In this document: positions 8,104 through 18,147 of the stretch, in pieces
Layout of the letters: every line of letters starts with the position of its first letter
Position numbering within the stretch: position 1 is the first letter of the stretch
Made by a program: the position numbers and the translations under genes
Notes under the pieces: model-generated
What the model saw: the letters and a program-made list of their open reading frames with translations, nothing else
What the model was told of the DNA's origin: nothing
The model's database searches: none
IMG/VR virus record: IMGVR_UViG_3300042298_000464
Coordinates: 1 to 27,038 of that record
Length of the DNA: 27,038 bases
Origin: a virus
Direction: 5' to 3' (one strand)

Positions 8104-8422
8104 ACTTAGCCCACACCCCACGCTGTACCATTAGTGCGATGATGGCGTAGTTAGCCAGGTCAACAAACGAATCTTCAAGAGATTCGTTCTTAGGTTTCTC
8201 TGACTTGGGACTGTAGATAAGATTCTTTAATCTCTCTATCTTGTCCGACATACGTACCATCAGCCCATTGGTTGCGCCACCTGGTGCATGCCAGATATTG
8301 AATGGACCATAATCAATTTGTTTCTTTACTAGAATTGCAAGCAATTCGTCGTAGATTTTTTGAGCATCCTCTTCGAATTGCAGGATGGTGGTATCTTCAG
8401 ACAACGAGCTCCCTCTATTCAT
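8084..8422 (-). CDS. Nmad1 / DUF1599 nucleotide-modification-associated protein
   Basis: 112 aa. The pattern KQIDYGPFNIW, then GLMVRMSDKIERLKNLIYS, then NESLEDSFVDLANYAIIALM matches the DUF1599 family, now called nucleotide modification associated domain 1. The E/D-rich 'MSDKxxRLxNL' and 'ExxxDxxxDLANY' helices resemble MazG-like all-alpha NTP pyrophosphatases. A role in deoxynucleotide metabolism or hypermodified DNA is likely by family. It overlaps the TOPRIM gene by 8 bases and the endonuclease VII gene by 20. Confidence 0.78.
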   Translation of the reverse strand: MNRGSSLSEDTTILQFEEDAQKIYDELLAILVKKQIDYGPFNIWHAPGGATNGLMVRMSDKIERLKNLIYSPKSEKPKNESLEDSFVDLANYAIIALMVQRGVWAKYAKKSE

Positions 8423-9062
8423 CCAGTGCGTTAATCAACTTAGTTAACGCTTGAGCTCCTTGGCTGACAATTATACTATTAACGTCACTATCAGGCGGTA
8501 GCGACACGCGGATGGCTTGAGGTATTGCATCAGATAAACGGCGGGCTAGTTCTTGTCCTGGGTTAGAACCATCCTCTTTGGCATCGTTATCTGTGGCTAT
8601 AACAACGCGACCAATGCCGTCAAAACAACGGCTAAAGTGAGGCTTCCAAGCATTAACGCCAGCCACAGCGACAGCAGGATGACCAGCAAGGGTAGCAGAT
8701 ATCGCATCAATCTCTCCTTCTACAATCAATACTTCATGGACTGCATGAAGGATAGCACTAACGTTATATAGGTGGTGCTTCTGACCAGTAGGAATCATAT
8801 ACTTTGGGTCGCCATCATCTATACGGCGGAACTTAAATCCAACTACACCTGACTCTGTTATGTATGGGATAGATAGGTGATGCTTCAACCTATCTTCATG
8901 ACCAGGTGCAGGTTCAACCACATACCCAAGCTTGAATTGTTCGGCTCCGTTAAGGATGCCACGCTTCTCAAGGTATGCCTCGGCTGGTGAACCAGCAAGG
9001 TTGGCATGGTATGTGTTGGCTGCTTTAGTCCAAAGGTCTATGAGCTTTTGATTTGGTTTCAC
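8415..9062 (-). CDS. DnaG-type primase catalytic (TOPRIM) protein
   Basis: 215 aa with a GTG start that forms a GTGA overlap with the Ntn hydrolase gene. Residues 11-35 (ANTYHANLAGSPAEAYLEKRGI) match the primase N-terminal helix. Residues 63-90 (LSIPYI..SGVVGFKFRRIDDGDPKYM) fit the DnaG core. The TOPRIM fold shows VLIVEGEIDA with the catalytic Glu in EGE 115-117 and VVIATDNDA with DND 158-160. The protein lacks its own zinc finger and helicase domain; both are separate genes in the same operon. It synthesises primers for phage replication, or at least holds the TOPRIM core for that. Confidence 0.85.
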   Translation of the reverse strand: MKPNQKLIDLWTKAANTYHANLAGSPAEAYLEKRGILNGAEQFKLGYVVEPAPGHEDRLKHHLSIPYITESGVVGFKFRRIDDGDPKYMIPTGQKHHLYNVSAILHAVHEVLIVEGEIDAISATLAGHPAVAVAGVNAWKPHFSRCFDGIGRVVIATDNDAKEDGSNPGQELARRLSDAIPQAIRVSLPPDSDVNSIIVSQGAQALTKLINALDE

Positions 9063-9592
9063 TTCTTCTCCTGCCTATGCACAACAAATGGAGGGGCAGT
9101 ATACACATCATTCTTGGCTGCTATCTGCATTGCTTTCTTCCAGTTAGCACCAGATGCGAGAGCACCTATGGCATAGGAAGACCCAGAACCTAAGCCATAG
9201 ATGCCATCGTCGCGTAGGAAGACTGAGTATGTATCATCTACTTCATAGATGGTTCCATTCACAGCCATTAAAAATAAGAATTCATATTCATCTGTCTTCT
9301 CATCGTGAACGAATCCGTTATCACGTAAGCATTCACGCATGTTAGGGATGACAGTTGTAATCATAAAATGATAGATGTCTTTTGTGTTAGCTGGTATGGC
9401 TGGTGGTTTCCATATGTGTTGGACTATGTCACAGGGTTGAGTAGTGCCAGCACCAGCGATTAGAAACTTACCGCGTTTAGTAATCTTAGTTACGATTGGA
9501 TGTGAGTAAGGGCGACCCTTCTCAGTTGTAGTTCTACTATCGGCTGCAATCAAGCAGCCGTCTGGTTCTTGAATACCAATGATTGTTGTCAT
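9059..9592 (-). CDS. proteasome beta / HslV-like Ntn-hydrolase peptidase
   Basis: 177 aa, the usual length of HslV. It opens MTTIIGIQEPDGCLIAADSRTT. After Met removal T2 becomes the N-terminal nucleophile Thr1; D18 then falls at mature position 17 and K36 at about 35, near the catalytic Asp17 and Lys33 of proteasome beta subunits and HslV. GSGSS at 135-139 and NDVYT at 161-165 match the conserved C-terminal half (HslV 'GSGG.YA..A' and 'D.YT'). It should form a ring-shaped cytoplasmic threonine peptidase. No partner ATPase (HslU, Mpa) is encoded here, so it may borrow the host's or act alone. It overlaps both primase genes (ATGA, GTGA). The Ntn-hydrolase fold is well supported, the substrate unknown. 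Confidence 0.83.
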   Translation of the reverse strand: MTTIIGIQEPDGCLIAADSRTTTEKGRPYSHPIVTKITKRGKFLIAGAGTTQPCDIVQHIWKPPAIPANTKDIYHFMITTVIPNMRECLRDNGFVHDEKTDEYEFLFLMAVNGTIYEVDDTYSVFLRDDGIYGLGSGSSYAIGALASGANWKKAMQIAAKNDVYTAPPFVVHRQEKK

Positions 9593-9918
9593 CTAACTGA
9601 CCGCAATCTAGGTGGAGTCCAACGACTACTGGACTTACGTCCACGTGTCGGAGCTGGGCTCTTCGACTCCTTACCTATGTTCTTCTCTGCCCATTTACGA
9701 GCGTCTGAGTATGTTAAGTTTTCACGAGCCATGACAATCTGTATACCAGCGCCACGTCCGCTGCATGCATAACATACCCAGACACCCTTCTCCGAATTAA
9801 CCGAAGCAGACTTATGTGAGTCATCATGTACAGGACAAAAGATGGATTTGTCCCCACCTAACGGTAGGTCTAATCCGTAATGACGAAAGACTGCTTCAAG
9901 AAATTCGGGTTGGTTCAT
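9589..9918 (-). CDS. primase CHC2 zinc-finger protein
   Basis: 109 aa. C28-x2-H31-x17-C49-x2-C52 in IFCPVHDDS and WVCYACSGRG is the CHC2 zinc ribbon that recognises the priming template in DnaG and T7 gp4 primases. It continues with GAGIQIVMARENLTYSDARKW as in full primases, then a basic Ser/Arg tail (RGRKSSSRWTPPRLRSVR) that probably binds DNA. The catalytic TOPRIM part is two genes downstream. Three bases separate it from the transglycosylase gene. Confidence 0.87.
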   Translation of the reverse strand: MNQPEFLEAVFRHYGLDLPLGGDKSIFCPVHDDSHKSASVNSEKGVWVCYACSGRGAGIQIVMARENLTYSDARKWAEKNIGKESKSPAPTRGRKSSSRWTPPRLRSVR

Positions 9919-9921
9919 AAC

Positions 9922-10302
9922 CTAATACCAATTCCTTTCCTGATGGAACCTGTACGCTTCGCACCAAGTGTCGTATCGATGTAGCACATACTTGTGTGCT
10001 TCCTCCGTTTGTTTGAGTAGTGACCACCCTGGTTTGCCCCAGAGTAATTGCCATACTCCACGTGCTCCACTCGACTTGTTGAAGGAGTCCACGTTGTATC
10101 GGCTCTCCTTGTATGCAATGCGAATTGCACACTGAGCCTCGCGCTTGTTGGTTGTGACTTGTGTTAGCACCAACTCCACTCGTTCCTTTTTGTCCGTGAC
10201 TACGGACAACTTCTTCTCGAATGTAAGTTCTGGTGATAACGCTTGGGCTGGTGCTGCTATTGGCAACATTAATCCAAGCACTGTCACTATCACTAACCGC
10301 AT
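9922..10302 (-). CDS. secreted lytic transglycosylase (SLT-like)
   Basis: 126 aa. The first 22 residues (MRLVIVTVLGLMLPIAAPAQA) are a signal peptide with an AQA-type cleavage site. The mature part has the SLT signature: catalytic Glu in AYKESRYN (around 66), then FNKSSGARGVWQLLWGKPGW and, near the end, RYDTWCEAYRFHQERNWY, as in actinobacterial and phage transglycosylase domains. Two Cys (AQCAIR, DTWC) may form a disulfide outside the membrane. It cleaves the peptidoglycan glycan strand. AGAGGTAACT precedes the ATG. It is unusual for a secreted wall enzyme to sit in the replication operon; the lysis genes are elsewhere. Confidence 0.85.
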   Translation of the reverse strand: MRLVIVTVLGLMLPIAAPAQALSPELTFEKKLSVVTDKKERVELVLTQVTTNKREAQCAIRIAYKESRYNVDSFNKSSGARGVWQLLWGKPGWSLLKQTEEAHKYVLHRYDTWCEAYRFHQERNWY

Positions 10303-10321
10303 AGTTACCTCTTTTCATTTT

Positions 10322-10344
10322 GTGAAACTCTGTCACAGTTTCAC
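10322..10344. promoter_or_regulatory. 23-bp inverted repeat ahead of the transglycosylase gene
   Basis: GTGAAACT (10322-10329), 7-base centre CTGTCAC, AGTTTCAC (10337-10344): a perfect 8-bp inverted repeat overlapping the end of the resolvase gene and 20 bases upstream of the transglycosylase ATG. It could be a protein operator or an mRNA hairpin near the ribosome site. Confidence 0.5.
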
Positions 10345-10694
10345 TGATGTCCATTGTAACCTGCCTGTTTAAGCAGATTCACCCAGAGTTCAGCAGGCAT
10401 TACTGCATACGACTCTGAGATATTAGATGTGCCACGCTTTTTAATTAGCACAACGCCTGTTTCTGCATCCGCATGAATCATCTCATCTTCTAACTCTCTG
10501 AGATAACCAGGGATATCAATTCTTTTTTCATTCTTACATTCTATAACAACACCATCGATGCCATCAATGTCACCAACATCATCGTGTCTACCTGCCCCAT
10601 ACGCCCGCTCAGCACAGGGATAACCCATACTGATAAGCCACTTAACTACATCACGTTCGTATTGTGAGCCCTTGCGTTTGGATGGCGTGGTCAT
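10341..10694 (-). CDS. Holliday-junction-resolvase-like PD-(D/E)XK nuclease
   Basis: 117 aa. GSQYERDVVKWLISMGY with E13, then YGAGRHDDVGDIDGIDGVVIECKNE with D42, E52 and K54, reproduces the E...D...ExK active site of Hjc/VRR-like nucleases. It probably cuts branched DNA during replication or recombination. It is part of a set with endonuclease VII and two other nucleases. Its ATG overlaps the previous stop (TAATG). Confidence 0.82.
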   Translation of the reverse strand: MTTPSKRKGSQYERDVVKWLISMGYPCAERAYGAGRHDDVGDIDGIDGVVIECKNEKRIDIPGYLRELEDEMIHADAETGVVLIKKRGTSNISESYAVMPAELWVNLLKQAGYNGHQ

Positions 10695-16305: not shown

Positions 16306-16821
16306 CTACTTCTTATTAGTTGGACATTCTGGACAGCAGCAGTGATGATGTGGTTTAATTACAATTGCTGGTTTTTTTGATGGTAGTACGGCAACAGCAG
16401 CTTTAATACGATTGGTTAACTTAGGTTCGTTTAACCACCAGAACCAAGGGCTGGTGTCATTACCTTGACCATCATTGATAGAAATATGCAGGTGCTTGGT
16501 ATGCGGGTTTGAACCAGTATATTTTCTGTTGCCTTGCTTAGCATATTGCTTAGACCAAATCTTCTTATCGAAGATTAGATACTTAACTCGTGCATCTTCT
16601 TTTAGTTTCTCAAAGATAACAGCACAGTCAATACCATTAGCTGGGTCATGAGTAAGGTCTACTGCTAGCCCAGTATTGTGGTCCGAAGTCGGACTCGCCT
16701 TGAGGTGAGCAGCACTGGGCAGGAGCCCATCGCTTGCCTTCTTGCGTTTCGGTGCTAACGCCGTCGCTTGACGGAGAACAGCAACGGCAGCAGGTGTGGC
16801 TTTCTTGGCTACAGTTTTCAT
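16306..16821 (-). CDS. M15 (VanY/D-Ala-D-Ala peptidase-like) endolysin
   Basis: 171 aa. The zinc-peptidase motif SDHNTGLAVDL carries H48 and D55, and SNPHTKHLHISI gives H112 with H110: the H...D...HxH set of the M15 family. The first 25 residues (KKATPAAVAVLRQATALAPKRKK) form a basic helical segment, not a signal peptide. The enzyme cleaves peptide crosslinks in peptidoglycan at lysis. The tail ends HHHCCCPECPTNKK (158-171), a dense metal-ligand cluster that is unusual for an endolysin. It directly follows the glycosyltransferase and two holin-like genes. Confidence 0.85.
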   Translation of the reverse strand: MKTVAKKATPAAVAVLRQATALAPKRKKASDGLLPSAAHLKASPTSDHNTGLAVDLTHDPANGIDCAVIFEKLKEDARVKYLIFDKKIWSKQYAKQGNRKYTGSNPHTKHLHISINDGQGNDTSPWFWWLNEPKLTNRIKAAVAVLPSKKPAIVIKPHHHCCCPECPTNKK

Positions 16822-17739
16822 TCATTTCCTTACTCTACTCATAATCAAATCGTTTTTATCTCTTAGTTCTATTCCAGTTTTTTCTATCCACTGTAAATAT
16901 AAATCATAATTACCTATGCCATATATACCAAGGGTTATATCGCCAGTCATAATTTTAGCTAAACGTTCATATGATTGATAGTTAAGCAGATACCAGTTCG
17001 GGTCATCCTCCCAATGCAACTTACGTTTAGGAGTGCTTTCATTCCAAGATGCTTTATATTCGTGGAACATGAAATCAACTGGAGTATTTATTAATTTAAT
17101 ACCACGAGTATAGAACCGTAATCCTAGAGATGGTTCTTCTCCATGAAAATAAAGCAATGAATCATAAGGAACTTCTTCTATTATTTCTTTGAAACAGAAT
17201 AAAGAATTACCAGACACATAATAGATTTCATCTCCATAAGGATTGAAACTAGCCTCTTGAAATGATGGTCCCACCATCTTTTCAACTTCATCCCAAACAG
17301 GAACTATCTTTAATAAATTGCTGCGGTAATGAAACTCATCTTGTTTATTGTCGTTTACTTTATATCCTTCTGGGTAGGTAGTAAAGACAATCTTTCCGTA
17401 ATGTGCATACGATGACAGGTAAGAATTTACAATTGCTTTATCCCATCCTGGTCTAAACCTAGAATGAGAATCTGTCTGAAGAAAGAATGTTCCTTTAATA
17501 TCTCTGGAACCTATTTCCCTAGCCCAACAAACTCCCTTACTTTGACTCCAGTGAAACTTGTAATAAGTTAACTGTTCCTCTGGAATGAAAGATAAGTCGG
17601 GATGTTCGTTATCTTCCGCTTGAGAAACTATAGTAAAATGTAAACTATCAGGGTCTGAAGAATTATCCCAGGCAGAACGAATGCTTGGCAATAGTTCAAT
17701 ATCCCTATAGCTTGCTATAGAAACATTGATACCAGACAT
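16822..17739 (-). CDS. GlcNAc-transferase-like glycosyltransferase (GT60-type)
   Basis: 305 aa. NVSIASYRDIELLPSIRSAWDNSSDPDSLHF, then SKGVCWAREIGSRDIKGTFFLQTDSHSRFRPGWD when read through, matches the GlcNAc transferase (Skp1-type GT60, Glyco_transf PF11397) family: 'SIRSAxxxxxxPxxL', 'Gxxx(A/W)RE', and the acidic DSH (90-92) in place of DxD. Cytoplasmic; no signal peptide. Located among virion genes, next to the endolysin, it may decorate virion fibre proteins with sugars or alter the host wall. One of two unrelated glycosyltransferases in the window. Confidence 0.8.
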   Translation of the reverse strand: MSGINVSIASYRDIELLPSIRSAWDNSSDPDSLHFTIVSQAEDNEHPDLSFIPEEQLTYYKFHWSQSKGVCWAREIGSRDIKGTFFLQTDSHSRFRPGWDKAIVNSYLSSYAHYGKIVFTTYPEGYKVNDNKQDEFHYRSNLLKIVPVWDEVEKMVGPSFQEASFNPYGDEIYYVSGNSLFCFKEIIEEVPYDSLLYFHGEEPSLGLRFYTRGIKLINTPVDFMFHEYKASWNESTPKRKLHWEDDPNWYLLNYQSYERLAKIMTGDITLGIYGIGNYDLYLQWIEKTGIELRDKNDLIMSRVRK

Positions 17740-17743
17740 CTAT

Positions 17744-17938
17744 TCACTTTCCTGCTATTAGGGTAAATAGTTCGTCGACTCTGCGTTCTAATCTATCCAA
17801 TGAGTCACGCATACTTGTACCAGAATTCGGCTTAAGTTCAGTAAGGTAGTGCTTGACCAACCAACGAACTGAGCCAGCAAAGCTGGCGACTATTGTGGTA
17901 ACCGCTACTGCGATACCAGCCCATTCGTTGGTGCTCAT
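17744..17938 (-). CDS. holin-like membrane protein 1
   Basis: 64 aa. One hydrophobic segment at about 6-28 (WAGIAVAVTTIVASFAGSVRWL), then a predicted coiled coil (RDSLDRLERRVDELFTLI). Its start overlaps the stop of the next holin-like gene (TAATG). Small TM-plus-coil proteins of this kind beside an endolysin are usually holins or holin partners. Confidence 0.68.
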   Translation of the reverse strand: MSTNEWAGIAVAVTTIVASFAGSVRWLVKHYLTELKPNSGTSMRDSLDRLERRVDELFTLIAGK

Positions 17939-18147
17939 TACTCTTCTCTACCGAACGCCGAGTCAGATGAATCTAAAGCACGGAGCACGACGGGCAACAC
18001 TGCCACGACTCCTGCTGTGAAAATTGCTTTAAGTCCTGCCGAGTCAAGAGTGAAGATATCCCCACCAGTAGCAGTAAAGGCAGCAAGGCAAGCGCCAATA
18101 AAATGGCGCACGTAGCTTTTAATAGCCGATACGGTTTTTTCATTCAT
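17938..18147 (-). CDS. holin-like membrane protein 2
   Basis: 69 aa. Two hydrophobic stretches (YVRHFIGACLAAFTATGGDI and LKAIFTAGVVAVLPVVLRAL) with a short loop and a charged end, as in two-TM actinophage holins. AAGGAGAAATAA precedes the ATG. With the single-TM neighbour it could form a holin/antiholin pair timing lysis. Confidence 0.7.
   Translation of the reverse strand: MNEKTVSAIKSYVRHFIGACLAAFTATGGDIFTLDSAGLKAIFTAGVVAVLPVVLRALDSSDSAFGREE

Follow-up and report, generated by a model that had tools for sequence, protein, structure and literature searches.

I propose that the phage in virus record IMGVR_UViG_3300042298_000464 (positions 1 to 27,038, the whole stretch of 27,038 nucleotides analysed here and called the window) keeps among its replication genes a small exported enzyme of the Apf type, SLT, whose start codon is buried in an RNA helix, and that a second reading frame over the same DNA, alt, is kept open for the sake of translation. 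This is the best explanation I can offer for the locus as a whole, and I put its probability at about 0.6. The enzyme alone is not new, because the closest studied case, Tgl of Kayvirus, is also a secreted lysin with an early promoter; SLT is a further member of an already known kind. It is the second frame, free of stops and preceded by an RNA hairpin that covaries, that makes the locus distinctive. An earlier note on this DNA described the enzyme and made no mention of the overlapping frame or the RNA structure, and I found no published account of the SLT/alt overlap in the open-licence literature.

Gene callers give one frame per place, and alt overlaps the 126-aa SLT from end to end. The pair is thus a compact and testable case, either of a gene born by overprinting or of translation itself being under selection. 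If it is true that selection here is for the act of translating the same strand rather than for the protein that results, it would amount to a form of regulation new to DNA viruses. The locus also bears on how a wall-cutting enzyme can be kept among replication genes without killing the host too soon, and it does so in phages related to the cultivated phages of abundant freshwater actinobacteria, 'Ca. Planktophila'. The positions of the features discussed are collected in Table 1.

Table 1. Features of the SLT/alt locus and their positions in the window
Feature	Position	Strand	Basis
SLT, exported lytic-transglycosylase-like gene (126 aa, ATG start)	9922..10302	-	PHROG 35836, NF052397
Putative signal peptide of SLT, residues ~1-22, A-x-A cleavage site	10237..10302	-	Composition and conservation, 87 distinct proteins
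Apf C-terminal-like catalytic domain of SLT, residues 56-126, with invariant Glu66, Cys58 and Cys114	9925..10137	-	NF052397, alignment, weak match of the model to lysozyme-like structures
alt, second ORF (152 aa)	9896..10354	-	ATG 52 nt upstream of SLT ATG; open frame, stop avoidance
Inner RNA hairpin, 8-bp stem, 7-nt loop GUGACAG	10322..10344	-	Covariation; resolvase stop codon and alt codons 4-11 lie within it
Outer helix, 5' arm (last part of resolvase gene, with the probable Shine-Dalgarno of alt)	10356..10369	-	Comparison
Outer helix, 3' arm (over SLT spacer and start codon)	10295..10308	-	Comparison, covariance model
RusA-like Holliday junction resolvase gene, directly upstream of SLT	10341..10694	-	PHROG 244, 1.4e-24
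Primase zinc-finger gene, directly downstream of SLT; ATG 3 nt past SLT stop	9589..9918	-	Pfam PF01807, 2.2e-10; PHROG 360

The earlier note had taken SLT for a secreted-type protein with a signal peptide and an SLT catalytic motif. The first part is borne out by composition, hydropathy and conservation, the grounds on which the signal peptide was judged. The N-terminus has a positive start, a hydrophobic core and an A-x-A site, and these parts are kept while the sequence varies: a small-x-Ala site occurs at residues 16-26 (near residue 21) in all 87 distinct SLT proteins and a positive residue at positions 2-6 in 86 of them. SLT was also the only one of the 30 window proteins scanned to pass the hydropathy cut for a signal segment. 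The second part, the catalytic motif, stands with a qualification. A profile search matches the protein to PHROG 35836, 'transglycosylase' (E 2.6e-45), and its score against NF052397, the NCBIfam model for aggregation-promoting-factor C-terminal-like domains, is above the curated cut-off (52 vs 40 bits), with all 50 of the aligned relatives matching at E<=0.01. Against the Pfam SLT model itself (PF01464), the window protein falls below the threshold, at 17 bits vs a gathering score of 21.3. Glu66, which I take to be the catalytic glutamate of the lysozyme-like fold in the SLT family, lies in YKESRY or FKESRY and is invariant in 87/87 distinct proteins; Cys58 and Cys114 join it as invariant in an alignment of 50 sequences.

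An AlphaFold2 model of SLT (mean pLDDT 81) resembles lysozymes weakly (best Z 4.7, rmsd 4.7, 82 aligned), and the listed rows are nearly all lysozymes. Foldseek gave the model E values of at least 2.3, and no solved structure matched the protein by sequence at E<=1. The best explanation of these matches is that SLT is a small exported lytic-transglycosylase-like protein of the Apf/IsaA/SceD kind. The comparison with Rpf proteins, also made in the earlier note, goes no further than a likeness in fold and role, because the domain is that of NF052397 and because no match to Rpf (Pfam Transglycosylas) was found at E<=1 with HMMER, whose filters drop most very weak matches. The start codon of SLT is preceded by a good ribosome-binding site, AAGAGGTAACT-ATG, present in nearly all relatives.

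SLT does lie where it had been placed, between a resolvase gene and a primase gene and far from the holin/endolysin cluster. What is likely to be the lysis region (16306-18147, -) is about 6 kb away and consists of an M15-like lysin, identified by eye (16306-16821, -), and two possible holins, which are small and have membrane-type segments (17744-18147, -). The M15-like lysin has 75% identity with a Planktophila phage F5 protein across 150 aa. Two strong terminator-like hairpins, at 14150-14127 and 14021-13998 (-), stand between the late and the replication genes. They agree with early expression of SLT and do not show it; that SLT would be made early, as the earlier note had it, is plausible on this arrangement, and promoter-like matches are not above those in shuffled sequence (6 vs 8.8). 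The primase itself is split (8415-9918, -) into the zinc-finger gene and a TOPRIM gene (8415-9062), and between the two is a gene for a proteasome/HslV-like Ntn-hydrolase (9059-9592) that is conserved in relatives.

The order resolvase - SLT - primase zinc finger is found in 80 of 80 viral contigs, the best 80 in a search with the SLT protein. When the best 80 were instead selected independently with the primase protein, SLT was kept in 80/80 loci, of which 65 were checked in this set and the other 15 through the SLT search, although many contigs are common to both sets, and keeping the best 80 per search under-samples distant phages. Judged from these sets, SLT is a core gene of a group of freshwater actinophages of about 41 kb. 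A host origin was considered, but one scan of bacterial genome contigs gave 30 pattern matches and no relative. The Planktophila phages E7 and F5 (records OX376640 and OX376641; strains LanE43-AprE7 and -AprF5) are relatives of the group, and at E<=1e-3 F5 has matches to 20 of the 30 proteins of the window. Unlike the SLT of the group, the relative in F5 does not lie between resolvase and primase: those two genes adjoin, and the SLT relative is elsewhere, on the other strand. In E7 the relative adjoins a whiB-like gene, as judged by eye. Both phages are counted, in the paper that describes them, among the first isolated phages of 'Ca. Nanopelagicales' (PMC10202952).

Then there is the second frame. 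The ORF alt runs on the same strand as SLT in another frame, covering SLT and the start of the primase gene, and its ATG is accompanied by a Shine-Dalgarno-like AGG. The start is present in 99 of 106 distinct upstream-plus-gene sequences, and the spacing between the two starts is the same 52 nt in 101/101 distinct sequences. In 96 of the 99 distinct relatives with the start, alt meets no stop within the first 108 codons past the SLT start, and 92 of the 99 start-bearing sequences have at most one alt stop. The seven without the start are L204, L239, L237, E7, two Streptomyces phages and one Staphylococcus phage. L204, a broken copy, has a single alt stop; the others have from 3 to 31 (L239 3, L237 6, E7 9), and the depletion of stops seen in the hairpin clade is absent from L239, L237 and E7.

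Synonymous shuffling, which keeps both the protein and its codon usage, leads one to expect 5.1 alt stops where 0.47 are observed (means over 86 sequences), while the remaining frame of SLT has 9.5 stops against an expected 10.9. Of the 25 window genes tested, SLT alone gave p<0.05 in the alt-type frame (0.006); the nearest other genes gave 0.052 in that frame and 0.050 in the other. The avoidance can be read directly from third bases. Before AA, AG or GA, the three stop contexts, T/(T+C) in SLT is 75/1155=0.065, vs 0.52-0.73 in 17 other genes and 0.60 in other contexts within SLT itself; taken by dinucleotide it is 0.007 (AA), 0.035 (AG) and 0.088 (GA). Site by site, T is nearly absent at residues 20-108 and common at residue 110 (26/64). 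A tree-based count over all 76 hairpin-bearing leaves finds 4 C<->T changes at the stop-context sites of SLT vs 51.3 expected from the gene's own rate, and ten other genes counted on the tree show 90-276 such changes, each at or above expectation. The comparison makes it clear that the alt frame is under selection to stay open, and translation of alt is very probable. A short gene such as SLT might have an odd composition, but it is scarcely credible that a mere bias in codon context should defy shuffles that preserve codon usage, spare the remaining frame, be lacking in 17 genes of the same genomes, confine itself to exactly three stop contexts, relax at residue 110 and be missing from the SLT genes of L237, L239 and E7.

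How far must alt extend? It stops at residue 110 in 23 of 99 sequences and at 75 or 96 in 3 of 99, so alt need not run the whole way to the primase start. That start could be located in 79 of 101 sequences. In 51 of these alt runs past it, by 14 or 23 nt; in 26 alt falls short of it by 31 to 58 nt, and in the remaining 2 by 157 nt. The three exceptions to the rule of 108 open codons, L031, L032 and L039, have alt closed early, at residues 75 and 96, and the hairpin persists in them, which makes them useful as a natural test. A different accident has befallen L204 (IMGVR_UViG_3300008262_002631, around 3489), where part of the signal-peptide region is deleted and the SLT start codon leads into the alt frame, so that the enzyme is broken; this may be an assembly error.

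The two starts lie within one RNA fold. For the inner hairpin, covariation over 38 distinct leaders is 0.509, vs 0.199 when shuffled (0/500) and at most 0.129 when slid; both sides have changed in 6 of 9 pairs, and the loop is nearly invariant. The outer helix has 12 pairs, 100% paired in 38 sequences, and because 11 of the 12 never vary it has no covariation support by itself. Resolvase codons 109-117 show almost no synonymous variation across 71 genomes. A covariance model of the whole element finds it in L239 (E 1.6e-9) and L237 (E 2.7e-9), though neither has the inner hairpin or the upstream ATG. The minimum-energy fold gives the structure in the window and in 3 of the 4 hairpin-bearing relatives tried, L074 being the one that differs, and gives the outer part in L239. 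No Rfam family matches positions 9800-10500 at E<=1. That the hairpin is a DNA operator for a protein is disfavoured by a stem that changes by compensation and a loop that stays fixed. That its covariation is a by-product of alt coding is disfavoured by the many stem changes that alter alt residues and still pair. Nor does it look like a repeated element, since the covariance model finds no convincing second copy in the window or in 20 loci (best other match E 1.4).

I propose that the outer helix hides the SLT start until ribosomes finishing the resolvase gene open it. The start codon is buried in a helix, established by comparison, with the end of the resolvase gene, and therefore translation of SLT is probably coupled to, or released by, the ribosomes that end there. 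The upstream start of alt would compete, as a ribosome that begins at alt crosses the SLT start in another frame.

The history of this arrangement can be read from a tree (FastTree, rooted with Planktophila phage F5) in which the 76 hairpin-bearing loci form one clade with support 0.964. L239 and L237 fall outside it, in a branching order that is poorly supported (0.49), and these sister lineages have neither the hairpin nor the alt ATG and have early alt stops. A short segment carrying the hairpin and the ATG would have arisen once, over an older start-site helix, and the second frame would have been selected afterwards. A single gain of hairpin and alt ATG is the simplest history, resting on only two sister lineages, and two losses may have happened instead. 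Ribosomes may also enter alt by a frameshift from the resolvase stop, but an ATG with a Shine-Dalgarno-like AGG is the simpler route.

What, then, is alt open for? It might be a real protein, recently overprinted, disordered and fast-evolving, in which length and N-terminus matter more than exact sequence. Its own ATG and AGG, the fixed 52 nt and the open frame are all to be expected of such a protein. So is its N-terminus, MDI...VT......KRGNYAV, which is nearly invariant, but the RNA structure and the SLT start site account for this as well. Substitution classes in the overlap give dSN/dSS of 1.41 and dNN/dNS of 0.94 overall, the latter dropping to 0.44 in residues 58-112, where there could be some constraint on the alt protein. 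Against this, the ratio of alt residue changes per nucleotide change is 1.02, no different from the 1.006-1.054 of non-coding frames in eight other genes, and the four-fold divergence of SLT is merely at the low end of its neighbours' range. No convincing family was found for alt in Pfam (best E 0.038, in one of 36 members) or in PHROG (best E 0.088), and its AlphaFold2 model has a mean pLDDT of 35.6 and no predicted fold. The usual argument for an overprinted gene starts from a protein that is conserved or expressed; alt is unlike such cases in that amino-acid constraint is not clearly detected. The residue changes, divergence, families and fold together indicate that alt is kept open with little regard to the protein it spells. 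By sequence comparison that protein is mostly not conserved, and a functional alt protein seems to me rather doubtful.

Selection on translation itself is what I infer instead, because the alt protein sequence is hardly constrained and has no predicted fold. Competition alone would need only a short second ORF, yet alt is kept open to residue 108 or beyond. Ribosomes that take the alt lane would pass the enzyme gene without making the enzyme, would keep the message covered, and would reach or come near the primase start. The positions at which alt ends would be expected if such ribosomes must leave no long naked stretch before the primase gene. On this proposal a structured leader chooses between the start of a dangerous enzyme and an upstream start whose product is irrelevant, and the downstream replication genes would stay on even when no enzyme is made. 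I offer this last step very tentatively; the fast-evolving protein is about as likely.

There is a precedent of sorts in the ambigrammatic narnaviruses, in which codon avoidance keeps a second frame open with little sign of a functional protein, and selection on translation itself has been proposed (PMC7010960, PMC8316113, PMC8155312). The likeness goes only so far: in narnaviruses, which are RNA viruses, the second frame is read from the complementary strand, whereas alt shares its strand with SLT in a DNA phage and follows a structured leader with two starts. The manner in which alt would have arisen, by a new upstream start that opens a new frame over an old gene in one clade, is like that of overprinted genes of viruses and bacteria (PMC8227390).

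As for the enzyme, the likeliest role of SLT would be that of an auxiliary lysin, by analogy with Kayvirus Tgl. Tgl is described as a secreted, wall-degrading protein made from an early host-type promoter, one that needs loss of membrane potential for lysis when it is not overproduced and that is read as an auxiliary endolysin (PMC7150955). SLT shares with it a signal peptide with an A-x-A site, a catalytic Glu and the NF052397 domain (64.7 bits in the Twortvirinae homologue), and neither is the main lysin. Tgl differs in being larger (239 aa in that homologue), in lacking an open second frame (the homologue has 31 alt stops), and in the placing of its gene, which is a few genes from lysK with a host-type promoter of its own (PMC7150955). 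I would give even odds that SLT works in the manner of Tgl, that is, that it is exported through Sec during the replication phase, has low activity in the wall, and aids lysis once a holin collapses the membrane potential.

SLT lies in the replication operon, away from the M15-like lysin and the small membrane-type proteins and separated from the late genes by the terminator-like hairpins. This placing would also suit another role, suggested in the earlier note beside local wall remodelling: superinfection exclusion or the keeping of a wall permissive to uptake of nutrients or DNA, with no part in lysis. The Streptomyces phages EGole and Ibantik would suit it too, as their relatives of SLT are near genes of nucleotide metabolism (ribonucleotide reductase, ThyX or polymerase genes). 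It weighs against this role that Tgl, the only phage relative to have been studied, brings about lysis and is interpreted as an auxiliary endolysin (PMC7150955), and I consider the role unlikely. Far less likely still is an enzyme packaged in the virion that acts when the phage enters a cell: tape-measure proteins of Gordonia, Mycobacterium and Corynebacterium phages match the domain weakly, but SLT has a signal peptide of the cleavable type and its gene is outside the structural genes.

Auxiliary lysin or not, SLT has relatives of the same general build. The proteins of EGole (gp40), Ibantik (gp24), E7 and the Twortvirinae phage all have, like SLT, an N-terminal signal or membrane segment, and all score above the NF052397 cut-off (EGole 128 bits, Ibantik 114, the Twortvirinae phage as given above, E7 57). 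Unlike SLT, the two Streptomyces phage proteins have a long linker, and EGole, Ibantik and E7 have no open second frame. One contig among the loci compared is odd in another way. IMGVR_UViG_3300027754_000069, at 82688 bases twice the usual size, carries two different primase loci, L223 and L311, and looks as though the assembly had fused two related phages of 41 kb each.
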